Source of the DNA: Diphasiastrum complanatum
Lineage: Eukaryota > Streptophyta > Lycopodiopsida > Lycopodiales > Lycopodiaceae
Assembly (NCBI GenBank): GCA_029204225.1
Contig: CM055100.1
Coordinates: 28,534,649 to 28,598,648 of the forward strand
Reading direction: 5' to 3'
DNA length: 64,000 nucleotides
Positions within the stretch are counted from its first letter, which is position 1, and the number at the start of each line of letters is the position of its first letter. The notes under the pieces were generated by a model. The model saw only the letters and a program-made list of their open reading frames with translations. It ran no database searches and had not been told where the DNA came from. Of this stretch, positions 11,113-54,457 are shown one piece after another. The translations under genes were made by a program, and so were the position numbers.

Positions 11113-11920
11113 TGGCAAAAGCTAACAGTAGTACATATCATCATTAGACATGTGTGGAGCCTGTTCCCATGTGTGGAATAAATGCATCTATTAGATGAGT
11201 CTTATAGGTTGTACGTACCATTTCATTTGAGATCTAGTGGCTAAAATGGCCAAAATCTAGTTTTCTAGCTATATGCCACTTAGCATCATGTTATTGGTAG
11301 GAAATGTTATGCCATAAGTTTAGGAGTGATCTCCCATGTGTAGAGGGCTGCTCACACATGTGTAAATATTAGTAGAAGTCGAATTTGGACTAGTAGAAGA
11401 TTTTTATCTAGGTTCCTACAAATTAGGAAAATTGCCTAAAATCAAGGGAGGTGGCTATAAGTTAGGAAACTTGGTCCATGTGCCATATTGATGATTATTG
11501 GTGGATCCTTTGATGAGTAGGAACTCTCACACATGCCAAATCAGCTGAGTAAGCATCGGCTCTTGTGCATATATAGTGGCTCATTTGGCCATAATTGACA
11601 AGAAAGCTAAATCTTGGTTTTGGTGTATTTTTTGAGTAATCTTTCCATTCGTCTTGTGATTTTATGCTTCTAATGGTTTCTAAGCTTAGTGTACTTCATT
11701 CTCTGCTGGTAGTCCGTACTTTGACAAGTTTTCACACGTGTGAAACCAGCAAGTACAAGTTTTGATCATATTTGATTGTTCTTGTTAGATTTGTTGATGC
11801 ATATTTGATCTAATGTTGTCTAATATTGTGTAGATTGGTAGATCAATCTAATCTAACACCCAATCACACTTGTGGATCTGATTCAGATCTATTCTTGGTC
11901 CATTTTTTTGTACTTTGACA
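11113..11920 (+). repeat. 5' LTR
   Basis: Begins near TGGCAAAAGCTAAC (or 9 bp earlier, see the element entry) and ends TACTTTGACA before the primer-binding site. It contains several CACATGTG/CACACGTG palindromes, including TTTCACACGTGTGAAA near 11735, which contains the G-box core CACGTG. A TATATATA stretch at 11571 is a plausible TATA box. Confidence 0.85.
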
Positions 11921-11933
11921 TGGTATCAGAGCC
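11921..11933 (+). other. Primer-binding site (initiator tRNA-Met)
   Basis: TGGTATCAGAGCC immediately follows the LTR. It is the complement of the plant initiator tRNA-Met 3' end used by many Copia elements. Confidence 0.9.
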
Positions 11934-12849
11934 AAGTACAAGTGCATTTAAGGAATTGATCTAAACTATACCCAAATTGGTAGGTTTTTGGAAACAAGCT
12001 AATATTGAGGTAGCGAGTTTGAATGGATAGCTAGAACCATTATATTTGTACCAAATCTTGTTGTGGGCTGCAGGTGTACTTTCCACACGTGTGGGGCCAT
12101 ACAGAACCTATTTTGGACAGTAAAATTTTGTTTGGTGCATTTTGAGCTTCATACCCAATTTTGAGTCAATTTAGTGCACTTTTCAAGCTTTCACTTGCAT
12201 TGTTTCTATTCCATTGATTTGCTCTTGGTTTAGATCAATCATATAGATGGATTAAAGCTTTTTTACAGTACATTTAAGTTGATTCTCTGATTTTTTGAGT
12301 GTACATTGAAGTTGAGAGAGAAAGAGTGCTATAAACCAAAGATTAAGGAGTGATTTGCAAGGGGAGTGATTGAAATCCATTATACCTTTATTCTAGATTT
12401 GTTCAAGAGTGAAAGGGCCAAGTCTAGAAGCATCTAAATGCTAGAAGACACTCTTGGATCAGTTCTCCAAGTGAAATCTTAGTGAATTTCTAAAGTACAA
12501 ACACTCATAAAGGCAAAATCTAACTATACAAGGTGATAAGAATTGTTGGCAAGTACTAGGAGAATAATTTGAGATCCAAGTCACATCGTTCACCCCTACT
12601 CAAGTGTGTGAGTGTGTTTTCTGGCTTGAATTAAAGTCATAAAGGTGAGTGAGGCATATGTGTTGTGGTTGATCCAAAATTTTCAAGAGGTCCTTCCTTT
12701 GTAGAGGGCAAGAACTAGTAACTCAATTCTTGACTTTGGTGGAAAAATTGTCTTCTTCATTGTGATCAAATCTTGCTAAGTGGCATAGCTCTTTGTAAGC
12801 ACATATCTTAGTGAGAGAGAAGTATCACATTTTTGAAAATTTGAATTTC

Positions 12850-13560
12850 ATTCCAACTCTAAAGAGGTAGAGTCATTGGTACTTGGTGGAGTCCAATAGG
12901 GGTGAATGAATTCAATTTTTTGAGCAAAATTTTGACATTGTATGTATGAAACTCAAATAAGTTCTATTCAAATTTCTTTGTGAGAGTGTGAGGGTCAAGT
13001 TGTGATCCCATTGGGAGTCTAGAACAGGGAGGAGTCCATATTTGAGTGTTCATACATGATTGAGATCTTTGTGAATCTCTAGATGTCTAATTTTTAAGAT
13101 TGGTGAGAAATTATTGACATAGATTGTTATCAAACCATTTCATGTCCATTCCAAATCTCAAGAGTGAGATTTTTTTGGGTCAAGAGGGATTCCAATAGGG
13201 GTGATTGGATCTGATCTTTGTGTGTTTGAATCAAGTATACATGTCAAGTTTTTGTGATCTAGTGTAGATCCCTTTTCTTGTGAGAATTTATGGTATAGTG
13301 TTGTCAAATCAAATCAAATTCAATCCAAATCTCAAGAGTGAGATTATTTGAGTCAAGAGTGAGTCAAAAAGAAGTGATTAAGTTTGATTTTCAAGTATTT
13401 GAAACAAAACTCATACCTTGTTCAAGAATCTCAAAAGTTGAGTGAACTAGTCAAGAGAAAAAGAAAACCTAGGTGTCAAATCTTTTCAAATCCATTCCAA
13501 CTCTCAAGAGAAAGAGTCATTGGTATTTGTTGAGTCCAATAGGGGTGTTTGGATCTCATT
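12850..13560 (+). repeat. Imperfect repeats in the element's leader
   Basis: A motif of about 70 bp recurs at roughly 12853, 13144, 13324 and 13489. It contains CATTCCAA.TCT, AGAG..AGAG and TCCAATAGGGGTG followed by a T-rich end. Spacing is irregular (about 165-290 bp), so these are diverged local duplications rather than a regular satellite. They lie between the primer-binding site and the first open frame. Confidence 0.6.
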
Positions 13561-13766
13561 TTCATGATTTGATAGAGTACTTTTGTCCTAGTGATCAAAG
13601 CTAAGATTAGTTTCCAATTGACTAGGTTGAAAGAGATATGATTCAAAATTTGTGGTCTAGATCTTGTGTAGATCCTTCTAGATTGTTGAATGTGTTCAAA
13701 TCTATTTTCTTGAGAGTCACAAATTATATTTCGAAAATTCATATCACAAGGTTTTACTTCCTCATC

Positions 13767-14129
13767 ATGGCATCAATAGGTGGCAACCTATTGGAGGAAA
13801 GTAAGGATCCTAAATGCAACCTTTGTGGCAAGAGAGATCGTTTTGTCTCAAGATGCTACAAACTGAAGACCAATCCATCCAAGGAGAACCAAAGCAAGGG
13901 GGCCGAGGTGAAGGATGGAGCTTCAAGTTCAAAGTGCAAAGGCAAGAAGGACAAATCCAAGGAAAGGTGTTTCCTTTGTGGAAAGATGCATGAGGCTTGG
14001 AGCCTCATAAGGACTTACAAGATTTGTCTTCAAAAGTTCATCATCACACATTTCAAAACTTTTAAAGTTTTGCATTTGGAAGTGAATTTTTTTGGTTCAA
14101 GATGCAAAGATAAATGTCACTTTCATTAA
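13767..14129 (+). CDS. Zinc-knuckle-like protein of the LTR element
   Basis: An ATG in a good context opens a 120-codon frame beginning MASIGGNLL, like the start of many Copia gags. It has one CX2C motif followed by Cys (CNLCGKRDRFVSRC) and a second partial one (CFLCGKMHEAW), separated by a Lys/Ser-rich stretch. Both resemble CCHC knuckles, but the expected His is lost or shifted, so RNA binding is doubtful. The usual DUF4219/UBN2 gag fold is absent. The next frame overlaps its end. Confidence 0.5.
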   Translation: MASIGGNLLEESKDPKCNLCGKRDRFVSRCYKLKTNPSKENQSKGAEVKDGASSSKCKGKKDKSKERCFLCGKMHEAWSLIRTYKICLQKFIITHFKTFKVLHLEVNFFGSRCKDKCHFH

Positions 14130-14970
14130 TGTCACTTGGATTTATCTCATGTCCTTGGAAAACATTTTGCTTAGAACTTTAGAAAAGTTCAAATTTATTG
14201 TTATGATCCAAGAGAAACCAAGAAAGATTAAGGAGGAGCAATCACAAAATGAAAATAGTTCCATTTATGCTCTCATGACATCTTGTGAAGAACTGTTTTG
14301 CTTTGAAGAGTTTTTTGTATCTCAAAGGTGGATCAAGGCAATACTAGCTGAGTGTGATGCCTTAATAGATAGCGAAGCATGTTTTCCTTGTAAACTTACA
14401 TTGAATATGAAGTCAAGGAAATGGAAATGTCTTCATAATGTGTTTTTTGTTGGTTTCAATAAGATCATGAATGATGTGTTCATTCATAATGTTGAAGATT
14501 GTAAATTTTCAATTTTAGAGACAAGTTGTAAACTTCTTATGAGAATAAGTGAAGCATCCAAAGTGGACACTTATATCCATAAGCAAGTAGTTAGCCTTAC
14601 TGAGATGGAAATACTTTTTGATTTCAATATTAGAAAAATCATGCCAAGTTGTGGTGATTTTTGGACTTATGTTTCTAGCATAAGTAATGTTGATGATCAC
14701 ATGAAGTACACATTATATGATCATGTTTGTTGTGATCATTTTGAGACATGGAGATCTCGGATTTCCATCAAGGAGGAGCACCAAGAACTTGATCTTGAGG
14801 AGTCATCTCGAGGTTCAAGTGTGCCAAGGATTGAGGAGGAGAGTCCTTCTCAAGTTATGATTCCAAGAAGAAAATCAAGAGACATGGTTGAGCTCATATG
14901 GCTCACATTTCAAGGGAAAGAGGAGCACATTTCAAGTAGTATACATCTCATGCTTGCTTCTCTTATGTGA
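14092..14970 (+). CDS. Unrecognised open frame in the LTR element
   Basis: A 292-codon open frame overlapping the previous one by 38 bp in another phase. I recognise no domain. It is rich in Glu/Lys/Ser near the C-terminus, including ISIKEEHQELDLEESSRGSS. A stretch around SEASKVDTYIH recurs in diverged form just downstream (about 15207-15290) and inside the Copia element at 23.6 kb, so it belongs to transposon-borne sequence rather than a host gene. Its length argues for past selection in an element; it may be a captured or degenerate polyprotein piece. Confidence 0.35.
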   Translation: MVQDAKINVTFINVTWIYLMSLENILLRTLEKFKFIVMIQEKPRKIKEEQSQNENSSIYALMTSCEELFCFEEFFVSQRWIKAILAECDALIDSEACFPCKLTLNMKSRKWKCLHNVFFVGFNKIMNDVFIHNVEDCKFSILETSCKLLMRISEASKVDTYIHKQVVSLTEMEILFDFNIRKIMPSCGDFWTYVSSISNVDDHMKYTLYDHVCCDHFETWRSRISIKEEHQELDLEESSRGSSVPRIEEESPSQVMIPRRKSRDMVELIWLTFQGKEEHISSSIHLMLASLM

Positions 14971-15746
14971 TTTGGTGAATCAATTTGCTTTAGTGAGACT
15001 TTTGCATCTCAAAGTTGGAGTGAAGCAATAGTAGTTGAGTATGGTGTCTCTCTTGAGAACATAGTTGATGTTCTTAATGATTTGAAATTAATTTTAGATC
15101 AATTAGAAAGCAAATGGTTATTTCTTAAAATGTATGCTCTTGAGTCTTGCAAGAGCAAGAGTGATTTGTCCATTATAGTGTGAAAATTGACTTTTTTCAT
15201 GTATTGAGGCAAATTGTAGACTCTTTATGAGAGTATGTGAATCATCCTCTAAGGAAACTTATCTCCATAATGAATTATTTAGCCTCATTAGATCTGAGAT
15301 TAGCATGGTAATCAAGCATGGAGATATGATGCAAACTCTTTGTTATTATAGCATGCATAGTCTTGCCAATGTTGATAAGCCTAAGTCTCGAGGTCTTGGT
15401 AACATGATGTTGGATCTTTGTGATCCTTATGAGTCAAGAAGGACTATTTATTTTCTCATGGAGTTGCAGCTATTTTCAAGGAGGAGGAGCTTTTGGATCA
15501 ACCATATGTTTCAAGGATGGAACAAATCAATCAAGTGTTGCAAAGCTCTCAAGTTCATCAAAGAAGTCAACATCAAAGAGGCACTATCATGGATATGGTG
15601 ATTTCGGATCGATATCAAGCTCATTGGCTGATCTTCACACCTTTGAACCAGCAAGGATGCATATTCGAAAACCAATTCAGCCCATGGAGTCAATCTCAAT
15701 ATCATCATGTTTTTATCAAGTTAGTTTTGAGGAGGAGTCTTAAAAT

Positions 15747-16587
15747 TGGCAAAAGCTAACTTGATCAAATCTTGTAAATACCATTATGAGTAGTACATAT
15801 CATCATTAGATATGTGTGGATCCTGTTACCATGTGTGGATTAAATGCATTTATCATTTAGACGAGTCATATAGGTTGTACATACCATTTCATTTGAGATC
15901 TAGTGGCTAAAATGGCCAAAATCTAGTTTTCTAGCTATATGCCACTTGGCATCATGTTATTGGTAGGAAATGCTATGCCATAAGTTTAGGAGTGATCTAC
16001 CATGTGTAGAGGGCTGCTCACACATGTGGAAATATTAGTAGAAGTCAAATTTGGACTTGTAGAAGATTTTTATCTAGGTTCCTACAAATTAGGAAAATTG
16101 CCTAAAATCAAGGGAGGTGGCTATAAGTTAGGAAACTTGGTCCATGTGCCATATTGATGATTATTGGTGGATCCTTTGATGAGTAGGCAACTCTCACATG
16201 TGCCAAATCAGCTGAGTAAGCATCAGCTCTTGTGTATATATAGTGGCTCATTTGGCCATAATTGACAAGAAAGCTAAATCTTGGTTTTGGTGCATTTTTT
16301 GAGTAACCTTTCCATTTGTCTTGTGATTTTATGCTTCTATTGGTTTCTAAGATTAGTGTACTTCATTCTCTGCTGGTAGTCCGTACCTTGACAGGTTTTC
16401 ACACGTGTGAAACCAGCAAGTACAAGTTTTGATCATATTTGATTGTTCTTGTTAGATTTGTTGATGCAGATTTGATCTAATGCTATATAATCTTGTGTAG
16501 ATTGGTAGATCAATCTAATCTAACACCCAATCACACTTGTGGATCTGATTCAGATCTATTCTTGGTCCATTTTTCTATACTTTGACA
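15747..16587 (+). repeat. 3' LTR
   Basis: Matches the 5' LTR over its full length, with an extra segment of about 30 bp near its start (TTGATCAAATCTTGTAAATA). It ends TATACTTTGACA, followed by ATATT. Confidence 0.85.
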
Positions 16588-28200: not shown

Positions 28201-28663
28201 CGTATAGTTTCAAACAGAAACCCGTTCCGACCCAAAAGGGTCGGAACGTACAGTACGTTCCGAAACGTACTGGGTCGAAACTTTTTTTTTTCAATATAAA
28301 GAACAATTCAAAACATTACTCTATGGCCGACACTCAGGCTCGTGAATATTACGGCAAGCTCTATTATATACTAACAGATGGCAAATTGCTTACCACTTAC
28401 TTGTGCTATTACTGAACATAAAGACTTGTGGAAACTGTCAAGAACACCTCTACAGATTAGCAGGAAAGGACACAAATACCATTAGCATAAAGAACATCTG
28501 AAAGTAGCAATAAGTGTCAATAAATTGATGACTCTACAACAAAGAAAGCACGGAACTGGATGGTTGTCTCAATCGCGCATGTCTGGATCGTTGTCTACTG
28601 CATGTCTCAATCGCGCATTTCTGTTGGAATATCAATCCACACTCTAGAGAAAACTATCAACCA

Positions 28664-28728
28664 GGGCAGATAGCTCAGTGGTAGAGCATCCCATCCGGTA
28701 TGAGGGAGGTCCTGGGTTCGAATCCTAG
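28664..28728 (+). other. Truncated tRNA-like sequence in LTR
   Basis: Starts GGGCAGATAGCTCAGTGG and keeps perfect A box (TAGCTCAGTGG) and B box (GGTTCGAATCC) but loses the 3' acceptor strand at the rearrangement junction. Confidence 0.75.
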
Positions 28729-28915
28729 GACCTCTAGAGATTCGAACCCAGGACCTCTAGAGTGTGGATTGATATTCAAGCCACACTTGGTTGGAGTCCT
28801 AGCTGTCATCTCTGCCCCACAACTTGGGCCACCTAACCATGGCTTTGACACCATGACTTGTTAGGTCTAACTTGGCTCTGATACCATGTTAGAAATCCAT
28901 AAATCATAATATGGA

Positions 28916-28988
28916 TGGACAGACTAGGATTTGAACCCAGGACCTCCCTCATACCGGATGGGATGCTCTACCACTGAGCTATCCGCCC
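28916..28988 (-). other. tRNA-like sequence in LTR (73 nt)
   Basis: Same 73-nt unit as at 51557-51629: 7-bp acceptor stem, D arm GCTC/GAGC, T arm CTGGG/CCTAG, discriminator A. The anticodon stem has a mismatch and position 33 is C, so it is unlikely to be a working translational tRNA. A and B boxes are present. Confidence 0.75.
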
Positions 28989-29658
28989 TGTTTGATAGTT
29001 CTCTCTAGAGTGTGGATTGATATTCCAACAATTTCTATCCCTCGATGGTTGTCATCTTGAAAACCATGTCAGGTGATGGCATTGTGTGCAGTCATCACAC
29101 ATTTCTGGATGGTTATCAACCAATGGGATCTCCACTCAGTATCGCTGATTTTCTTTGTTAAAAGAATACGGTTTTTTTAAATAATTTTTTTAATCAGGTT
29201 CCGAAACAGAACGCGGGCAACTAAGAATGGTGACTGGTGAAGTAAAAGAAATCCAATTCATTAAAATGAGTCACGACCACTAAGTGAATCTGTAAGCGTT
29301 ATGCCTATGTAATAGGCATGAATCTGCAAACTTTCTGCTCACGAAACATGTGCAAAAAAGATGCTATTAAATGCACAATGCAGTTCTTCTCTCAGATATT
29401 CTGAGATTAACTGATAGCATGAAGTCAATCTTACAATATTTGCCCAAAAGAAAATACCTTCGGTAACATGCTTCTTCTTTAAACATGTCATAGAGCAATC
29501 CCATACATAAAAAAGTATATGGCATTGCAAGATACATCAAATGAAATTTATAAACTTGATTTCTGTGAAAGCTCAAAACTTATATTTTAATCAAGCCACA
29601 CAAATTACAATTTAGATCTAGAACCCCTACAATGAAACAACAGTAGATAATTTGCATG

Positions 29659-36413: not shown

Positions 36414-39400
36414 TCAACAAAAGCAATGGAGAGCAATGCTTAGCCAAAACTGAAAAATGTGACACAATAAGCCAATATGTACTCTGCGTACTTACTGAAG
36501 TTAGGGCACCCCCAAAAGTCAAGATAGGGCCCCTAAACCAAATTAGACCCCTAAGGACCCACGAGTCAGCACATGACCAAAATTGGGTCCAACTGAACTT
36601 AAGACAAACTTAAGATGGCCTAAATAACTAAATACCCATGGTTACATAAATCTCGACCTTTTGGGTCAAAGTAACCTATGGATTAACTTCAGCATAGTCA
36701 TTTATTTCTAACACCCTCCTTAAATGACAATGCAAAAATTGAAATCTTCACTATGTAATAAAACCACCACATGGTATTAAATTTAAAGCTTTGCATAAAG
36801 CTTCAAATCTGACTCTAGGCAATGCTTTAGTAAAGAGGTCCGCAATATTATCCTCGGTAGGACAATACTCAAGTAAAATGTCGCCATCATGGAGTCTCTC
36901 CCGAACAAAGTGATAATGGATCTAGATGTGCTTCGTCCTCGCATGAAAAACAGGATTCCGTGCAATGGAAATAGCACTTTGACTATCACTCAAGATAAGA
37001 GTGGCTGAGGGCTCGCCAAACTTCATGTCAACAAGTAGTCTTCTCAGCCTGAAACACTCCGTTGTGGCTGAAAATATCGCTCTATATTCTGCCTCACTAG
37101 GAGAAGTAGCAACAGTGAGCTGCTTTTTACTTGACCAAGAAATTGCAGAATTTCCATAGAAAAAGCAATGTCCACTTGTAGAGCGTCTAGTGTCTTGATC
37201 TCCACCCCAATCCGAGTCACTAAAACCAACCAAACATGCATCATCACAAGCAGGAAAAACCAATCCATGACTTCTTGTTCCTTGAAGATATCGAAAGATA
37301 TCTTCAATGCTTTCCAATGTGATGTCATCGGGGCATGCATGAATTGACTCATGAGTGAGACACAATAAGAAATGTCCGATCTTGAATTACATAGGTAAAT
37401 GAGACAGCCAATAGCTTGACAATATAAAGTAGTATCAAATGGTTCACCATCACCTTGACTACTTAAGTTCAGGCCTGTCTCCATAGGTGTAGTCAAAATC
37501 TGCCCAATGTCGCGTTCTTGAGAGATGAAAATTCCAGCCCCTTCTTGTACAAATTCAAGACCAAGATAAAAATGCAATAGGCCTAAATTTGAGGTTTCAA
37601 AAACCATACCAAGATCAACTATTACGACATCAATATGCTGCTCATTACTTCCCGTAATAATAATATCATCAACATAAAGCAAAATAATGATGATATAATT
37701 TGAAGTATGCTTGACATAAAGAGTAGATTCACTAGGACTGTTAGTAAACCCACGATCACAAAAATAGGCATGTATCTTTTGATACCACATCCTTGGGGCT
37801 TGCTTCAGTCCATAAAGTGCCTTCTTGAGAAAACAAACTTTATCTTCTTGGCCTTCAACCAAAAAACCAGTAGGTTGTTGAAGGTACAGTTCCTCATTGA
37901 GATCGCCATTGAGGAATATTGTCTTTATGTCAAGTTGCCGCAGACACCAACCATACTGGGCAGCCAAAGAGGTTACTACCCTCACGGTAGTCATCCGAGC
38001 AGTAGGAGAAAGTGTTTCCTCATAATCAATCCCCTTTTGCTGAGCATAGCCTTTGGCAACAAGCCTTGCCTTGTACCTTTCAATGGTACCATCTGCCTTA
38101 TACTTGATTTTGTATACCCATTTAGAACCAATTGCCTTCTTCCCATGAGAAAGATCAACAAGAAACCAAATCTAGTTCTTCATGAGTGAGTCATACTCAT
38201 CTTGCATTGCATCCTCTCAACATTTTACTCCCTTGGCCTGCTCATAGAAAACAGGATCTTCCGAAACATCTCCATGAGATGTAAGAGCAAAATCTGAAAA
38301 ATCAGCATAGTCCAGTGATTTTGTAGAGGCACGTGTCTTTCCATCATAAAATGAACTTACTTTGTTGTCCCGCAAAGTCGACAACAGCCACCGTGGGACT
38401 GTTTTAGACTGTCCAACAGCCATGTCTTTTCTTACAATTTGTTGTCCAAGATCTTCCGACACCGCACTTGGCTGTCCAAGATCTTCCAAAACTGTCCTTG
38501 TTGTCCAACAGTTCTTGCAGGCTGATTTTGAGCAACAATGGGCCGTTCTTGATGAACAATAGGCTCCAAACTTGATGAGATGTAGGGCAGTTTGAAACTG
38601 GTTGATTGCTGCCCCTTTCTCCAGAAATAGAGGATGGTACCAAATCTGGAAAAACTTCAACATTCACACTATGTGGGCTGTCCCTCCCTTCAAGATATGA
38701 GTTGGGGCCACATCTAATGAATTCTTTTCATCAAAATGCACATCACGACTAGTGCTCAAATTGAACAGCCTATAGCCTTTGCTTTCACTACTATAGCCAA
38801 CAAAAATGCATTTAACTCCTTTATACTCAAGCTTTGTACGAAGTTTATTTGGAACAAAAGCATAAGCCGTACAACCAAAAATGCGAAAGTGAGAGATTGT
38901 AGGCTTCTTTCCATACCAAACTTCATAAGGAGTTAGTACTTTCAATGCTTTAGTAGGACAACGATTGCTTATGTATGCTGCCGTTATAACCGCTTCAGCC
39001 CAAAACTTGTGAGGCAGCCCCTTTGCTTTGAGCATGCAACGGGCCATCTCCATAAGTGTGCGACTTTTTCGCTCGGCAACACCATTTTGTTGAGGCGTAT
39101 AGGGAGTTGTCATTTAATGTAGAATTCCCTTTTCTCGAAGAAATGCACCGAACGTATTCTTAATGTATTCCCCTCCTCGATCGGTGCGTAGGGTCTTCAA
39201 AGAATGCCCAAACTGATTTTCCACCATTGCTAGAAAATCTTTGAAACGTTGAAAAACTTTCGATTTAGCCTTCATAGGATAGATCCATGTAAAACGGGAA
39301 AAGTCATCAATAAAAGTCACAAAATAGATAGACTTTCCAATGAATTCGGTCCTCATTGGACCACAAACATCACTATGAACCAAATCAAATTTATCAAGAA

Positions 39401-40988
39401 CCCTTATAGTTCCATCAATTGGAAAAGGTTTCCTTTGAAACTTTCCAAGTATGCACCCCTCGCATACATGCCCTTCCGGCTGCTCAATAGTAAGAATGTC
39501 TTCTACCATATTAAATGTCTTCAGCTTCTTCGAACTTGCAAAGTTGAGATGCCCAAACCTTGCGTGCCACAATTCAGCCAACTCCAATGATTGTGATGTA
39601 GAAGCAACAAGACATGTAGAGGGAATTCGTCGCTCATAGGTATCCATAATGAATAAGCCAGCATGCATCGTTCCCGAAACAATAATCAAGAGTGATCTTT
39701 TAGGATCCTTGACAAGACACTTATCTTCTTTGAACTCAACAACTAGTCCTTGCTTCAACATAGTTGAAACCGAAAGAAGATTCTTCTTGATTCCTGGAAC
39801 ATAAAGCACATTCTTAATGTACTTTTCTTCACCATTAGGCAGAATGATGGCTACAATTCCAATTCCATGAATAGAATAAGATGCATTATCCGCACATTGT
39901 ACCTTACTTCCATTTTGCACTTTCACTAATTTAGTGAATGCTTCTTTGCGAGAAGTCATATGACGAGTAGCACCACTATCAATCACCCATTCAATGGGCT
40001 GAAAATCAGCAACTTGCAAAACAGAACCTGAATTCCTCATAGATGTAGAAGTACTAGTAGAAGCAATATTAGACACAAAAGCATAGTCTTGGTTGAAGAG
40101 ATCACCACTAGCTTCAAGCTCTTGCTTCAAAGTAGCAAGTGAAGCACTACTATCAATTCCTTTACTCTCCTCTTTCGCAAGCTTCTTCTTACAATCCTTG
40201 ATTAAGTGCCCATATTTGTTACAATAATGACATTTCCCTTTCTTCTTTTGAGTGTTGACATCTTGACCTCCAATGGGCTACTAGATTAGGATCTGTTTTA
40301 CTACTTAGAAATTCACCTTGGGTCTTTACCCAATATAGGTAGTAATTTTAGCAATTAGCTTTGTGTATCTTCATGTATCTTCTTCACTATTTGTGTATGC
40401 AAGCATAGATCTATTCTTTTTGGAGAGAAGAGAGTCTCTAATGAGGGCGACTGTTGGAGGGTTTGCGGATCCCAAGGCAACCTTAACCCTAGTTAATAAG
40501 TGAGAGGGATTTGGCACCCTACGTGTGTAAGTCCAACCCGATGATCACATAGTTATTTGATAATTAAAAAGTCAATAAAAGGACTTTAGGCCTTTTTGCG
40601 GGACTTTTAATGTCGCAGGGCCTAAATGTCAAGTTAGTGAATAAAATAGGGGTTCCCACCAAATTTCAATTTCAAATTGGTTCCCTCCAATTTTGAATGG
40701 GTTCCCACTTGTTTTTTAATTTGAATAGTTAGGGAGGTAGAAATGGGCCAATAGGATTTTGAGGCCCCGGCCCTCCTCTTCACTATAAATAGGGGCAAAC
40801 TCGAGTTGCTCCTCACGTTCAAATCTTCATTTCAATATAAGCAGATTGGCTCTCTTATGGATAGGACATGTGAATGTCCTTGCTCTCTATCCTTTTTCCT
40901 CCATCTCTCATGCTTTTGTTGTATTTGCTAATTGTTAGATCTGAATATTATTGGGATTGTATGTTTTTATGCTTTTTGTGAGAGAGAA

Positions 40989-41027
<39 letters not shown>

Positions 41028-44000
41028 CAAGTAACTATCTCTTTGTGGATCGTAGGGTTAATGGATGTAGTGTTAATTGTGTAGTGTTAATGGATGTTAG
41101 AGTTAGATGTGGATCTTCCATACATGCTGAATTCTAAGATATGTTATCGCTCTCACGGGATCGAACCTGCTCGTGACAACTAACTTCATCTCCTTGATGC
41201 TTGAGTGCTTGGATCTTGGGTTGAGGATAGGCTAGGAAATAAACGTTGTCGGGGAGCTACGCCAATTTTTCAGATTGCAGCATGTTGGTAGATGGTTAGC
41301 TTGCATTAGGCATCTTGTTTTGGCATGAATAAGGTTAAAATTGCATTTTAGAGTTAGATTGAGGGTGATTTTGCTTGATTTGAGTGGATCTTCTTGTTTG
41401 AAATCTAATTTGATTGTTGAACAGGTATAGCTATTCAGATCACAATTCTTAAGATCCATTTGAATTTGAGAAACCAAGAAAAACAACAAAAAACGGTCAT
41501 TTCTGCCAGACTTGAGCAAAAAGGAGACAAAATAGTCATCAGATCTGATAACTTTTTTTCCTCTTACAGGAAACCTTCGCCGAGTTGTAGGAAGCTTCGG
41601 TTTCACTCACAGATCTTTCAGATTGAAGGGCAAAGATTCATTCCCAGTAGATTTGCAGAAACATCAAAAAAACCATCAAAAAACACCACAAAAATCATCA
41701 GAAACCCTAAAAATACATAAAAGAACCTTCTCCCGTTTCACTGTGCATAAGTGTGATTTAGATCTACTTACTGCCAGGTTGGCGAAGAATAATACCAAAA
41801 ATAGAAGGCCAAAGTGACTGTTCATCTAGTTGCTAATAACCTTTTGTGGAAAATTCACAACTTTCTGCAAAAATATCAGTTCTCTGAGAAGAACCTTTGC
41901 CAGAGTCTGTGTCAGTCCCACTTACTATTTTTGATAATCAGTAAGTTGGGCGAAGGTTTTCCAAAGATCAGTTGTCATATTTTGTCAGCCTCTTTTTTGC
42001 AAAAATACCAGTATTGCTCTTGATTCTTCGCCACATCCTTCGCCGAGTTTTCTGAAGATTCTAAATATAATAATTTATCACTTTCGCCAGTTCTACCACA
42101 CATTTATCTGTGTCAGATTTATCCACTGAAGAGTCGACGAAGGTTAATTTTACCATATTTGTCAGTAAATAGCCAGATCAATGATTTTTTACCAAAAATA
42201 GCAGTGAAGAACCTGATCCAATCTCATTGTTTGATTGACTTAATTTGGAATTATGGCTAAAGGAGGACCAATGAACCCACCACCAATTATTGTTAGAAGG
42301 TCTCCTCGTCTAGATATACCAAAATACAATGGGTTATTTGATCCCATCAGATTTCTCCAGATCTTTTCTAAATCATGTAGGGTTTATGGCGAAGTCTTTC
42401 CATAAGAAAAACTTCAGTTATTCCCTATGGCCTTAGCTGGAGCTGCTCAAGATTGGTTTTATAACCAGGAAGGAGCATAATGACAAGACTGGGAAGTGGT
42501 TAAAGCCGCTCTCATTACGAGATTTAAACCCAAGAAATTTATGGAAGACCCCTTTCTCCTTTTAAGTAAAATTAAAATGGGAAAGAGAGAGGCAGTAAGA
42601 GATTATATTGAACGGGTTAAACACCTCAGATCTGAGTGTGATCCCGATCTAATCAATGAAGATGTTTTAATTATGTGGTTTTTAGCAGGTCTACCCAAAC
42701 GGATTAGACGCGAGCTGAAACACCATACTGAATACGCTATGATACAAAGCGCTATGGCTGATGCAATTCATGAGGAGGATGAAGATTCTGACGATGAACC
42801 AAATGTTAGAATGTTGCCTTATACAGCAGGGCAAACCACGACAACATCCACCACCATTGGATCAACAAATATCAATGCTACTGCAGAGAAGATGATCAAT
42901 GAGTTTGAGAAACTGGGTCAAAAACAACAGATGCAGCTAGAAAAGATGCAATCTCAACTTGATGAAAAGATCAAAGCCTTGGAAGATTTCCATGGTAAAG
43001 CGAACAAAAAACCTGAAAAGTTTGTAAAGACTTTTCCTAGCCAGGAAAATGTCTGGTGTTTAGTTTGTGCGGGCAATCACACTATGAATGAATGTCCAAC
43101 GTTGACGAATGACGAATACTATTTGTCATTTGTGCAATTCTATGGGTCATGAAACAACCTTTTGCTCGTTTAATCCTCGGAATATCCAGCAAAGGTATGC
43201 TAAACTTCAGTATCGAGAACCTACTTATTCAAAGGGGCCTGACGGAAAGCCTTTTAACTTGCCTTGGATTTCTAGAACGACTAGCTCTGCCAGCTCCAAC
43301 GGCACAGAGTGCTCCTCCTGCTAATCTAATGGAACCAGAATCTCATCGTGCTAATGAGCAATGGAACTATAGCCATCATCACGAGAGTGGTCCTTCAAAG
43401 CAATATGCTATCTATGCTGCTGCGCAACAACAAGCAGCTAGACAATGGACCAGAGCGCCACTTGGATGTTTTGCATGCGGAGAAAACCATAGAGTTGTTG
43501 AATGTCCGAACAAAGGAAAGTTTGTACCATTTTGTAGACCAGTAGTTCAACCTGAACCAACTGTACCTTTGATGGTTGTTACCAGAGCTCAAAACCAGAA
43601 AGGAGTTCTAGCTGATTCAGTACATGTTGAATCTGCACCAACTGCAGATATACCAACCGCATCAGGCGTGTATCCGAATCTCAAAGCAAAAAAGAAGTGA
43701 TACCAAGATATGAGACAATGGATTAACAGTTGCAAGAAGAAGAAACCCTAGAAGCCGCTAAAGTAGCATCCAAAGTCCCTTCTCCATCTATGCCACAAGC
43801 AGATCTAAGAACATATGTTAATAGAGAGAGAGAGAGAGAGACACACAGTTGCACCATCATGAAGAACCTTTCAAGATGACAGAACCCGAAGCACCGCAAA
43901 CAGAAATGATCATGAATATGTGGTCTAGTAAGATGGATATTACACTGGGAGAATTTCTTAAGCTGGTGCCGAAAGCAAAAGAAGTATTAGCAGAAAGATT

Positions 44001-44366
44001 GACTCAGATGGAATCACCAGTCCGTCAGAAGCCACTTTTTTGTGCTAGGTTTGAAGAATCAAACGAAGTACTCAATGTGGGACCAACCTGGGAAAGTGAG
44101 CAGAAAAACATCACCCTGCCGATACAACATAGACAGTTTAGTAAAGAAGCAGCCGTGATAGATGGAGGTTCAGGAGTTAATTTGATTCAACCAAGCTATG
44201 TGCAAAATGGGGACTTACCAAGCTAAAGCCTGCCACTTTTGCCATTAAGCTAGCTGATCAAACAACAGTCTGTCCCAGAGGAATGGTTGTCCATCTCTCA
44301 TGCTTTTGTTGTATTTGCTAATTGTTAGATCTGAATATTATTGGGATTGTATGTTCTTATGCTTTT

Positions 44367-44413
<47 letters not shown>

Positions 44414-47400
44414 CAAGTATCTATCTCTTTGTGGATCGTAGTGTTAATTGTGTAGTGTTAATGGATGTTAGAATTGGATGTGGATCTTCCATACATGCTG
44501 AATTATGAGATATGTTATCGCTCTCACGAGATCGAACCTATGCGTGACAACTAACTTCATCTCCTTGATGCTTGAGTGCTTGGATCTTGGGGTGAGGATA
44601 GGCTAAGAAATAAACCCACTACAGCGACCAACCATCTCCTCCTTCATGTGTGTTTGAGATTCTTTATGTTGAATGCTTTGCTGTTTGGTTTATGATTTCC
44701 AACACCCATTGCTTATGTTTGGTGAAACTTATGCGGCCAAATGTTGTGAACAATTGCAAATCAGAGTTTGCAAACTGCCTAAACCCTATTAACAATCACT
44801 CCATACAGAGTCCATAGAAAGAGTGGTGCCTATAGACTACATGCAAAATTATAAATGGTTTTTGACGTTGATGATTTCATAGACTGACAGCTTCATAATT
44901 TTTGAATCTCAGTCATTTGTGACCCAAATATTGGAGGATGAGAAACATTCCTTTAGGAGCTTATGCTCAGAAACAACAGCTTACCACAGTCCATAAAAAT
45001 TGTCTTAGTTTTCCTTTGTTTATGTTATTGGACTAGATTATCCAGAGTCTAAATGTGGGAGGCTCGTACTAACATCATACATTAGAAATCTCTAATCATT
45101 GTATCTGACAATGTCACCCACATCACCTCCTCTTCAAAGAATATGACCAAATAGAAGTCTCTTCTAAACTAGATGTACTAAAAGCATGTGTGAAACCATA
45201 ACAACGTTTGAAATCTCCAGAGGTTGAGACCATAGATGCACAGAAACGCGTTTCTGAGGGCACATGTTTTTGAAAACGCGTTTCTCCTCCCAGAATCGTA
45301 CTAAAAGAAAATAAAAAATAAAAAATTTGGAAAAATAGCTTATGGCTGAAATTTTTTTAGGGGATCAATGGTCAAACCAGTGTTTTGCCTCTCAGAAGTG
45401 CAGTAGATGGGGCACAAACAGATCTTATTTTCAATAGCTATTTGGTTGTTATTTGCTCTGGTTTTCAATAAATGCTCAAGGGGTTCGGAGGGCGGTAGCC
45501 CCCCGAGAAACAGGGGGTCCGATAGCCCCCCGGTAGGGGGTTTGGGGGCAACGCCCCCCAACGGCAGGGTCCAGGGGCTGCCGGTAGACCCCGGCCCCAA
45601 CGGTAAGGCCTCTTCATGATTTGGCCAACACCCTGAGTGAAAACACGCTTACGGACAGGCTAGAGGTTAGTTTTGAATTTTTATCCTTGACAGAACCCAA
45701 CATGGATTAATGCACCTGAACTGGACCATCCTGCACCCGAAACAGTCGACAAACTACACAGTAATATGCTCTTAATTACAGCTTTCATCTGATACCCATA
45801 TTGCCCATAAAAAAACCAAAAAAAAAAAAATTATATAAACAAAACGTTTATGGAATTTTTTTGTATTTTTCAGAAACGCGTTTCTGAACCTCGTTTCTGA
45901 ACGCGTTTCAGAAACGCAGCGCATCTATGGTTGAGACATTGAGAGTCAAAATGCCGTATTCTTATGATGATTCAATTCCAGTAAAATAGATTGATTACAA
46001 TGTGCAAAATCTCTCACAAAATATTCTAGATAGATCTATAAACTACTAATCATCTTACAGTTTCCTTTTCACAATGTCCCCTTCTGAACCTCGTTTCTGA
46101 ACGCGTTTCAGAAACGCAGCGCATCTATGGTTGAGACATTGAGAGTCAAAATGCCGTATTCTTATGATGATTCAATTCCAGTAAAATAGATTGATTACAA
46201 TGTGCAAAATCTCTCACAAAATATTCTAGATAGATCTATAAACTACTAATCATCTTACAGTTTCCTTTTCACAATGTCCCCTTTTGAAACTCCTGCAGCA
46301 GCTGGTGCACCTTCTTGGATCACTCCTTCCTATCATTTACATCAAAAGATGATGAGAAGCTGCGACTATGCTAGTAGCAATGGTATTTAAGAACAGCCTA
46401 AAATCACTTAGCATTGTCCTTTACGAACTTTTTGGTAAATAGATAACAAACTAAAACTCTTTATAATTCATAACTGCTACCAAGCATCTTGAAAGCATAT
46501 ACTTCAGCAGGTACCTTTGATAGGTAAAGATTTCTACGGTCATGATGCTCTTGCATAAATTTCTGTTTTGCTATATCCCGAGCTTCATTCCTCTCAACAG
46601 CAAAATTCACCACCAAAACTCTTCCTCCAAACAAAAGCCCGGTCTTTCCTTCTTCACTTTCCTTAGCAGCAGATACTGCATCTTGTGCAGCATTTTGAGT
46701 ATCAAACTCCAAGAATGCAGTTCCTTTTGGCCTCCTATGGACCATGGCAATATGAGATGGGAAACCATTGGCATTTGTTAGGCTTAAATAAACAAGACCC
46801 ACATGAAAATTTCGAACTGAAAAGAACCTTTATATTCTTATTGAACAACTGAGTTGGTGAAAACCACCAGAAATTACCGGGTCATAGGATGCAGAACCAA
46901 GCGAAGTGACTTTACAATGCCAAAAGCAGAGAATCGTTTCCTTAAATCTGTGACATTAGCATCAAGAGGTAGATTTCTGATGAAAACCGTTTTCTGGAGA
47001 TTTCCCACTGCAGGTCCAACTGTGCTACTCTCCAATGGTCCGGCTGGGTTTTTCGTTTCTGCTGGCTTTTCTAATTTTCCTGAATTCACGTTGTGACTTT
47101 TCTTGATATCAGATTCTATTGATGAGTCAGCACCCTGCTTTGAATGTTTTTTGTCGTGGTTCATGTGTGCATTTTTCGCTGGGAGATTGGGACCAGTTTC
47201 ATTTGCACTTTGTGCTACAATTTTATTCAGAACTGTATGGACCAAGTCAACTTCTTCAGGAACATTCACGGGCTCCACACTCTCGACCACATTGACTTCA
47301 TCCTCTTGAACTGACTCACCCTCAGAGTAGTCATCATCAGTTTCAACCTCACTAATTGAATCCTCATCCTCTTCACTTGCAGTATCATTCTCCAAATCTG

Positions 47401-50400: not shown

Positions 50401-53400
50401 GTATTGCTTGGGCTCTTCTTGGGAGAACCTTTTGCTATTGCTTGTAGGGCATTATATCAGATGCTACTGGTCATTCTTCATGGGAGATTGCTTGATTGTG
50501 TCTATTATAGTTGTGTATGTTTCATTGAAACGATATCAATACGTTCTATAACTTGGTATCAAAGCAATTTTATGAGCAACTGGAAGTGCTATTTGTCTTT
50601 TCGTAAATTTTTGTTTTTTGTTGTTATCTCCAAGAAGCCATATTTTCTAGTACTTGGTGGATCTTCATCTCCATGTGCTTCCTCCAACACACTTGGTGGA
50701 TCTTCTGAACAATTGGCTATTTTCTACAAGTTTTATGCCCTACGATCTACTCCTATCTATGATGTTTGACATGCAAGGCTTGCTACACATGCTAGTAAGT
50801 AATAAGTTGACTTCGATACGAACATCCATTATACATACCCATCGACTCACCCTTATCCTGCGTACCACTCTTTGGATGATAAGGGTGACCAATTTTGTTG
50901 CAAAAAATAGTAAAATTAATGTGAACTATGTCGAAGTTTTACGAACAAAGTTTGGCGAATTAGAAAAGTTACTTATCATCTCATAGATGTTGCGAATCAG
51001 TGGTGGGCCGCGGCGTAAGGTTTAACATACCCTTGATTGCCCATTGACATGGGCTGATTTTAAGAAATATTTCATAAACTAGTTCATCCCACCCCATGCA
51101 CATGTAGAGGCTAAAGACATGTTACATTTAAATAGGCAGACGACTGCCTTTGTCTAGGACTATCCTTAGAGTTGAGTGATTAAGCTTGTTCATAGCATCA
51201 GACAACAAGAGAATGGGTCGAAAACCAAGAAAGTTACAACCAATTCTTGGAGAAGACTGGGCTGTTGGAATATCAATCCACACTCTAGAGAGAACTATCA
51301 AACAGGGCGGATAGCTCAGTGATAGAGCATCCCATCCGGTATGAGGGAGGTCCGAATCCTAGTCTGTCCATCCATATTATGATTTATGGATTTCTAACAT
51401 GGTATCAGAGCCAAGTTAGACCTAACAGTTCATGGTGTCAAAGCCATGGTTAGGTGGCCCAAGTTGTGGTGCAAGTGACAACTAGGACCCCAACCAAGTG
51501 TGGCTTGAGGGGGGGGTGTTGGAATATCAATCCACTCTAGAGAGAACTATCAAACAGGGCGGATAGCTCAGTGGTAGAGCATCCCATCCGGTATGAGGGA
51601 GGTCCTGGGTTCAATTCCTAGTCTGTCCATCCATATCATGATTTATGGATTTCTAACATGGGCTAGGGTTGCGGTTTTTGAAAAAACAGCAGGAAGTCAC
51701 CATTTTTCCACCGATTTTGATTCTGTAAAGCCCAGTTACTAGTTGGAGGAGGTTGCTTGAGGGCCATAGATGATTTCTCTAATTTCAGCTCAGATCCTAG
51801 CTATTGTCAATGATATGTACATTGATATTGTAATGAATGTTCTTAAAGACATTCTAGAATGGATGCAAGTGCACAAGTTCACTTGCAAGAAGAGACATCC
51901 AGTCATGCATAGGGATTGTTCCACTCTTGAACAAGCCATTGTGATGGCTCTCATTTATGAGGGGAGAGGAGGCTAGTAGCTTTTGAGAGTGAAAAGCTAG
52001 CCCCCACTCAGGAGATGTACCCTACACATGAGCAATAATTGTATGCAATCATACATCTACTCAAGGTGTATTGGCACTATTTATATGGTGCCTAGTTTTA
52101 AGTTTATACTGACCACACTCTTAGGATTTTGGTAATCAGCCTCAATTGAGAGGTTGCCAAGTAAGGTGGGTAGAGCTTAAATGTTTTATGTGTTCCTTCA
52201 ACAACTGGCTCTAGAAGAAAACATCTAACAAATCGTTCACATGTCTTGAAACGTGGCCGAGGCATTCGTTAGCCCGAAAGGTATCACTAAGGATTCAAAA
52301 CTTGGTTAAGAAATTAATATTGTGACTTTGAACGTCACAAAGGAAGCTACGCTAAATGAACATTCACATTCACAATTTACTTACCTGATTTCAAGATTGC
52401 CTTTCAAGGGTATTTCAATAACTTGGACAATCTTCTTGCCTTTGTGTTCAAGACATTCCGCCTGTGTTGCAGCGGATCGCGATCCGCTGCAAAAACAATC
52501 TGGATCGTGCGATCCGGATCGCCAGCGATCCGGGACCAAAAACTCTGTCCCGGATCGCAAAAAAATTTGCAAATTTTTTTGTCATTGTGGAGGGATCCAC
52601 AGCTAGTTGCAATCCAAATGACCAATGAATAGCAGCAGAAATACTGAGGCAGATACAAATGAAATGATTAGCCAATGTTACAGTATCTGATAAAGTGACT
52701 AGCAGATGTTGGGGGTTAACTATCTGAAACCAAGCAATAGAACCGCTCTTTTGAAATCCTTTCCCATGATACCTCATATTGGCAGGTTTGAAATAAAAAA
52801 AACAAAACAAATTTGCGTTCCGGGAAACCCTAATGGGAAATCCCGGATCACGTTCCGGAACGGATCGCGTTCCGGAACGCGGGCTGCATCTTTGAAATTT
52901 TCCGCTCAAGATCCACGCTAGAAGAAACTAACTAGTGGTTAATAGGGGCTCCAGGATAGTATAATCTTCTGATGATAGAACTTAGACACATCTGTTTCAA
53001 TAATGAAAAGATTGCAAAAGGTTGGGTGTCCAGAGCTGAAAACACTGTTAAGAATGACATTCTTCATTACTTGTAAACATGCTGAAATATAACATAGGGA
53101 GAGGTGATGACTAAAAATATAATGTTGGGAGAGGTGACCAGTAAGAAAAACTTACAAGTCCAATAGATGGCAATGGATCAATCAAATTGGACTTTGAGAA
53201 TCAAGTTACAGAATTTGCTTCCACTTTAATGCTCTAACTTTTGCTTAGCAGAAAGGTGTTGCTTAACAAAGTACTTTGGAACTCTCCTTACATACACATA
53301 ATCAGCAAGAAATTGTCCAGAAATTTCATCAAAGTCAAACAACCATAAGCTACAGAAACTCACAAGCCATCAGCCTTGCGTGGGATGGTTATCTCCCACA

Positions 53401-54387
53401 CGAATCCTGCTGCTGAAAATAATTCTCTTAAGGTTTCTTCTTTTACCTGTAATCAGAACCAAACAGTGACATGATGTACTGTAAGTAGATCAGTACTGAG
53501 TAAACTGAATACGAATGAATGTTCATGCCACATGGTAACCTTGATAAACTAGCCTCTTTATTAGCAAAAAGTTCAAAGTTCCAACAATCATGTGCTTACA
53601 GGATACTAAATAGCAGCTTTACTTTGTCTTCTCAACATGAATGTCTCGATCATCAGTTTGCATTGAATGGTCTCGTATTTCTCCTAAAATACTAGAAAAC
53701 ACACGCTCCTAACAACATACAGCCCAATTCCTAACCAACAACCCTCTCAAGAAAATTTTAAAGCTGAGGCAACCTATGCTCATAATCATTATGACTATAT
53801 TGATTGATGTGGCATCACTACAGAGGGTGATGACCAAATAGACTAATCACACTACTAATGTTCTGACATCAATGCAACTTAGTGGATCCTTTCCACCTTA
53901 GGTTAGTACACTTTCGTGAAAATGATTAAAGCTTCTTTACCACAAACAAAACGGACCAGATAATATGCAACGATTACTAATATATTTGTTGGACCAGATG
54001 CAGTTACTAACATAGTCCATGACCTAGGGCTAATGTTACATATTATTGAACGTGTCACATTGAAGGGCAAAAGTTATTTACAGAAAATGGCCAGTAAATT
54101 ATTGTCATAACACAACAATGTATACTCCTCTTTGAAAGCAACAGCTTTTGCTTAGTTATTGAAGAATTACAACAAGAAAGAGCAAACCTGGAACGGTAGA
54201 TTGCGAACTATCAGCCTCCACTTCTTCAGCTTTGAACCCTGAAGAACGGAAAGATGCTATCCTTGAGAAACAAAGTTAAATTTTAAGTATCAAAGGAAAC
54301 TTGATCCACACTACATATCTGTCATATTGACATGACTTTCAATCCCAACTTCAATATGAGGTTAGGATCATCATTTAATGAATATAT

Positions 54388-54457
<70 letters not shown>

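Follow-up and report, generated by a model that had tools for sequence, protein, structure and literature searches.

A probable Helenus-type miniature retrotransposon with tRNA-like units in its long terminal repeats in the clubmoss Diphasiastrum complanatum

Two insertions of a miniature retrotransposon

We analyzed a 64,000-nt stretch of Diphasiastrum complanatum DNA (the window; all coordinates are window positions), in which a 396-bp element at 51263-51658 is organized as a miniature long terminal repeat (LTR) retrotransposon and carries tRNA-like sequence in its LTRs. LTR1 (137 bp, 51263-51399, TGTTGGAA...TTCTAACA) and LTR2 (142 bp, 51517-51658), both on the plus strand, were confirmed by direct sequence check to have TG...CA ends, and they enclose an internal region of 117 bp (51400-51516, plus strand). 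A 14-nt primer-binding site (PBS), TGGTATCAGAGCCA (51400-51413, plus strand), whose primer we take to be the plant initiator tRNA-Met, directly follows LTR1, and a G-rich polypurine tract (PPT; 51508-51516, plus strand) directly precedes LTR2. The element is flanked by target-site duplications (TSDs) reading TGGGC at 51258-51262 and 51659-51663 (plus strand). The size of the element, its LTR lengths and ends, the PBS, the purine tract, and the duplications had all been proposed in an earlier note on this DNA, and all of them check against the sequence. No open reading frame (ORF) of note was found in the 117-bp interior, and the longest stop-free frame touching the element (76 amino acids) extends outside it; this insertion, referred to below as copy 1, has no coding capacity and supplies no mobilization proteins.

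The earlier note had suggested looking for further copies with 5-bp duplications, and a BLAST comparison of the element with the window revealed one that had gone unnoticed there: copy 2, a 409-bp insertion on the minus strand (29030-28622). It has a full-length 5' LTR of 144 bp (28887-29030, minus strand) followed by a PBS (28873-28886, minus strand), and its LTR and interior are 93.7% identical to those of copy 1 over 255 aligned bases. The three full LTRs of the two copies differ pairwise by one or two substitutions over 135 to 142 aligned bases, plus one to four gaps. Copy 2 is bounded by the TSD GAAAT on both its 5' side (29031-29035, minus strand) and its 3' side (28617-28621, minus strand). 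Both copies also contain a degenerate second PBS-like sequence, starting 33 bases after the true PBS (mismatches at 2 of 14 positions; 51433-51446 on the plus strand in copy 1 and 28853-28840 on the minus strand in copy 2), which is possibly an old tandem duplication.

The 3' part of copy 2 (28622-28777) is rearranged. Here the interior is followed by two short forward LTR pieces, which match exactly at LTR positions 6-28 and 88-98, and then by an inverted partial LTR (28622-28728, plus strand), which runs from LTR position 107 to position 1 and forms the outer 3' end of the copy. This inverted piece matches LTR positions 1-107 at 96%, with 4 differences in 107 from the 5' LTR of the same copy; the rearranged part contains no PPT. 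As the 3' end is an inverted LTR piece, both outer ends of copy 2 are TGTTGG ends. Since the perfect GAAAT duplication surrounds the whole structure, it suggests that an aberrant cDNA with two U3 ends, either self-primed (fold-back) or template-switched, was integrated as such. The competing view is that copy 2 consists of two tail-to-tail insertions whose flanks match by chance; for any one pair of 5-mers, a perfect match is expected at random about once in 1000 cases. An aberrant-cDNA origin of copy 2 would suggest that integrase can join cDNA having U3 at both outer ends.

The tRNA-like unit within the LTRs

The unit of LTR2 is 73 nt long (51557-51629, plus strand), with box A reading TAGCTCAGTGG (51564) and box B reading GGTTCAATTCC (51608); it was found by ARAGORN and matches the Rfam tRNA model RF00005 at 49.0 bits (E value of 1.9e-7). 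The unit in the 5' LTR of copy 2 (28916-28988, minus strand) was likewise matched by ARAGORN and scores 49.8 bits with RF00005 (E value of 1.2e-7), and the unit in the inverted LTR piece (28668-28736, plus strand) scores 29.1 bits (E value of 0.055), where the gathering score of the model is 29 bits. LTR1 of copy 1 carries a damaged unit (51305-51370, plus strand), which has lost 7 nt at box B and is altered at one position of box A, and its 27.3 bits fall below the gathering score. The claim of a tRNA-like unit at a common place in each LTR of copy 1 is thus borne out for LTR2, while in LTR1 the unit is present in damaged form. The minimum free energy (MFE) fold of the LTR2 unit is cloverleaf-like, with the acceptor, D, and T arms paired, as had been described, and with an irregular anticodon arm. 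Scanning the whole window with Rfam at gathering scores returned three matches, all of them tRNA.

The unit sits at a common offset in all four LTR pieces longer than 100 bp and is therefore a family trait rather than a chance insertion into one LTR. Its start lies at LTR position 43 among the three LTRs tabulated, except in LTR2, which is 2 bp short and where it lies at position 41, and the unit occupies half of the LTR. It is present in both insertions of the family in the window; the earlier note held that other copies lacking the unit would speak against its reading, and in the one other insertion available, both LTR pieces longer than 100 bp carry it. A SINE (short interspersed nuclear element) or tRNA inserted into one LTR only is ruled out by copy 2.

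Box A matches its consensus at 11 of 11 positions in three of the four pieces and at 10 of 11 in LTR1. For box B, the inverted piece agrees with the consensus used at 11 of 11 positions and each of the other three at 10 of 11, including LTR1, where the box still reads GGTCCGAATCC and the spacing between the boxes is 7 shorter. Pairs of box A and box B (each at least 10/11, 25 to 65 bp apart) occur four times in the window, all within this one family, and in none of 30 Markov-1 simulations of the window; the sequence was already in view when the box A consensus and the cutoffs were set. A chance tRNA match is rejected on the basis of the Rfam E value and these simulations. Further, a CAA triplet, a candidate plant RNA polymerase III (Pol III) start-site motif of the kind described in PMC11700998, is found at -6 in all three of the tabulated units, and also in the fourth by reading of the sequence; it lies at LTR position 37 in LTR1 (51299-51301, plus strand) and at LTR position 35 in LTR2 (51551-51553, plus strand). 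Neither TATAWA nor AATAAA was found in the three LTRs scanned.

It had also been pointed out that the element lacks TTTT and is followed closely by TTTTT. Both observations are true, in that TTTT is absent from copy 1 and TTTTT begins at the 17th base of its flank; their weight did not survive simulation and comparison with copy 2. Of 5000 Markov simulations with the element's own composition, 3149 likewise lack TTTT, although in the AT-rich window the same is true of just 257 out of 2546 stretches 396 bases long, and TTTT lies within 17 bases at 14% of sampled window positions. The first TTTT downstream of copy 2 is 308 bases away, and no T-run lies near its end. Neither the absence of TTTT nor the TTTTT in the flank, therefore, carries much weight as a design feature.

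Relationship to Helenus and transcription from the LTR unit

The earlier note knew of no described family with this structure. Such a family has been described: Kojima (2024) gave the name Helenus to terminal-repeat retrotransposons in miniature (TRIMs) with tRNA-derived LTR sequence, placing them together with Cassandra and Ajax under TRIMp3; the hosts listed are fungi, animals, and one plant, Selaginella moellendorffii (PMC10886601). The Diphasiastrum family resembles Helenus in structure. Copy 1 has two LTRs, a total length of less than about 1 kb, and no mobilization proteins; tRNA-derived sequence with boxes A and B lies inside the LTRs, damaged in LTR1; copy 1 has a PBS after its 5' LTR and a PPT before its 3' LTR, with the PBS only in copy 2; and the TSDs, TGGGC in copy 1 and GAAAT in copy 2, are 5 bp long, which is a feature of Helenus in plants and fungi (PMC10886601). 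The best explanation as a whole, to which we assign a probability of roughly 0.85, is that this is a nonautonomous Helenus-type TRIM (TRIMp3) in D. complanatum, which would be transcribed by Pol III from the LTR unit and would take its reverse transcriptase and integrase from an autonomous element.

The closest published counterpart is Helenus-1_SMo of S. moellendorffii, described with an LTR of 120 bp, an interior of 85 bp, and 5-bp duplications (PMC10886601). Both hosts are lycophytes, and copy 1 has the testable structural features of Helenus; compared by published description, our family differs in its LTRs of 137 to 144 bp and interior of 117 bp and in its host order, Lycopodiales (Lycopodiaceae) rather than Selaginellales. 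As far as our searches show, the element is thus a further example of an already described design that extends Helenus-type elements to a second genus of plants and to another order of lycophytes. Among the papers listed by our literature searches, which did not extend to subscription journals, preprints, or Repbase, no further Helenus from a plant came up. Exact-pattern scans gave no matches in viral contigs and none in prokaryote genome contigs, as expected for a plant element, with records from the window's own genome or a near one possibly excluded, and a search among predicted proteins with two translated frames of the copies gave no candidates for further copies. A broader scenario, which we regard as rather unlikely, is that the Helenus elements of Diphasiastrum and Selaginella descend from one element predating the split between Lycopodiales and Selaginellales; they would then be the equivalent in lycophytes of Cassandra and of at least its age, with Pol III-made genomic RNA ending at random flanking T-runs.

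Two other classes of element share parts of this organization. Cassandra is likewise a TRIM, in which each LTR bears a promoter of Pol III type derived from a small RNA (PMC10886601), and the idea that our element represents a parallel design using a tRNA-type promoter with A and B boxes fits the evidence; Cassandra LTRs contain 5S rRNA, however, instead of a tRNA-like unit, and membership in Cassandra is rejected, as the whole-window Rfam scan gave no 5S match at the gathering score. The tRNA-derived SINEs (SINE2) have tRNA-like A and B boxes as their presumed promoter, whereas they lack LTRs, PBS, and PPT and use target-primed reverse transcription (PMC10886601). Membership in this group is rejected on the basis of the LTRs, PBS, PPT, and 5-bp duplications and because the unit starts at LTR position 41 to 43 and not at the 5' end.

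Judged from its sequence, the element would be transcribed by Pol III and copied as follows. In the 5' LTR, TFIIIC would bind boxes A and B, and Pol III would begin transcription at the CAA that lies 6 bases before the unit, or close to it, at about LTR position 37. The RNA would continue across the interior and the 3' LTR, where there is no T-run, and would stop at whatever T-run the flank offers. With reverse transcriptase and integrase supplied by an autonomous element, initiator tRNA-Met would prime reverse transcription, and the minus-strand strong-stop DNA would extend as far as the 5' end of the RNA, immediately ahead of the unit, and transfer to the matching sequence of the 3' LTR. The U3 of about 36 bp upstream of the start would thereby be recovered from the 3' LTR and the 3' flank would be dropped, so that no fixed terminator would be needed. 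In Arabidopsis, CAA triplets located no more than 10 bases upstream of a tRNA gene are described as start-site signals (PMC11700998).

Several points weigh against this interpretation. The family is known from two insertions only, within the 64-kb window, and LTR1 of copy 1 carries a damaged unit, so that copy 1 may be silent. None of the three units folded was significantly stabler than its shuffles (z of -0.82, -0.91, and -0.98, with 44, 35, and 28 of 200 shuffles folding equally well); what supports the tRNA call is therefore the covariance model together with the boxes. The CAA at -6 gives weak support, as the motif is short and lies within 10 bases upstream of only 36 to 45% of tRNA genes in the angiosperm groups considered here, and downstream poly(T), which the element does not itself possess, is a usual signal of plant tRNA genes (PMC11700998). 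Further, the Pol III promoter function of Helenus is stated as unproven by Kojima (2024) (PMC10886601), and no autonomous partner was found within the window. For a fungal pair, Kojima (2024) did find interior sequence in common with a larger element next to the PBS or PPT.

The alternative that survives best is a conventional TRIM transcribed by Pol II whose LTR captured a tRNA or a tRNA-derived SINE that is now a passenger with no promoter role. The damaged unit of LTR1 and the ordinary stability of the folds are compatible with such a passenger, and yet the near-perfect boxes in all four LTR pieces, the lack of TATAWA and AATAAA in the three LTRs scanned, and the share of the LTR that the unit takes up argue against it, and we judge this alternative to be improbable.

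That the element spreads a working tRNA-Thr(GGU) gene seems very improbable, even though ARAGORN calls tRNA-Thr with anticodon ggt for two of the units. A T is usual before the anticodon of a tRNA, and a C precedes the called one here; 11 bases lie between the fourth anticodon-stem pairs, compared with 9 in the Rfam model, and the anticodon stem is interrupted in the MFE fold. In favor of a working tRNA, a few Helenus families, 7 from bivalves (Thr) and 15 from fungi (His or Thr), can be predicted to encode tRNAs (PMC10886601). Given the irregular anticodon arm, we reject it here; the unit would serve as a promoter instead. Finders of tRNA genes can nevertheless count Helenus LTRs as tRNA-Thr genes, as ARAGORN did for two of the four LTR pieces. 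The idea that tRNA pseudogenes or a SINE lie by chance between unrelated direct repeats is hardly tenable: the unit is tRNA-like and tRNA-derived SINEs are common in plants, and yet the unit lies at a fixed offset inside the LTRs of two insertions, so that copy 2 contradicts this idea, and both copies have a PBS and 5-bp duplications, with a PPT in copy 1.

If the Helenus-type assignment is right, the value of the element lies in its host range, the closeness of its copies, and the inverted end of copy 2. Given how little the copies differ, a clubmoss may offer a practical system for testing whether Pol III can produce the genomic RNA of a retrotransposon from a promoter of tRNA type, a question that Kojima leaves open (PMC10886601).

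Other retroelements and features of the window

Apart from the miniature element, a single retroelement in the window has the exact 14-nt primer site: a larger LTR element at 11127-16587, whose LTRs of about 0.8 kb are 95% identical. It shares 16 bases with the miniature element at the start of the interior, and its left LTR gives weak short matches only (best E value of 0.008). Two of its ORFs were scanned and gave no Pfam match. On the minus strand, a Copia element at 37044-40277 is split over several frames and has RVT_2, integrase core, and gag-pre-integrase domains, and at 40900-44615 an ORF with a Retrotrans_gag domain lies between direct repeats (91%), probably representing a nonautonomous Gypsy-type element.

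Two 211-bp direct repeats at 45882-46292, which are 99% identical with a shift of 200 bp, represent a recent tandem duplication, and the sequence at 54382-54454 is identical to its reverse complement over 64 bases, as in a palindrome or simple repeat. The ORF at 1405-2283 encodes an acetate kinase (PF00871) with 100% identity, across 95% of the query, to a D. complanatum protein encoded on a chromosome-sized contig, so that this one gene points to D. complanatum or a very near relative as the host; its next named relatives, among the best 120 of 8000 scored candidates, are a second D. complanatum protein (83%) and conifer and liverwort proteins (66 to 68%).
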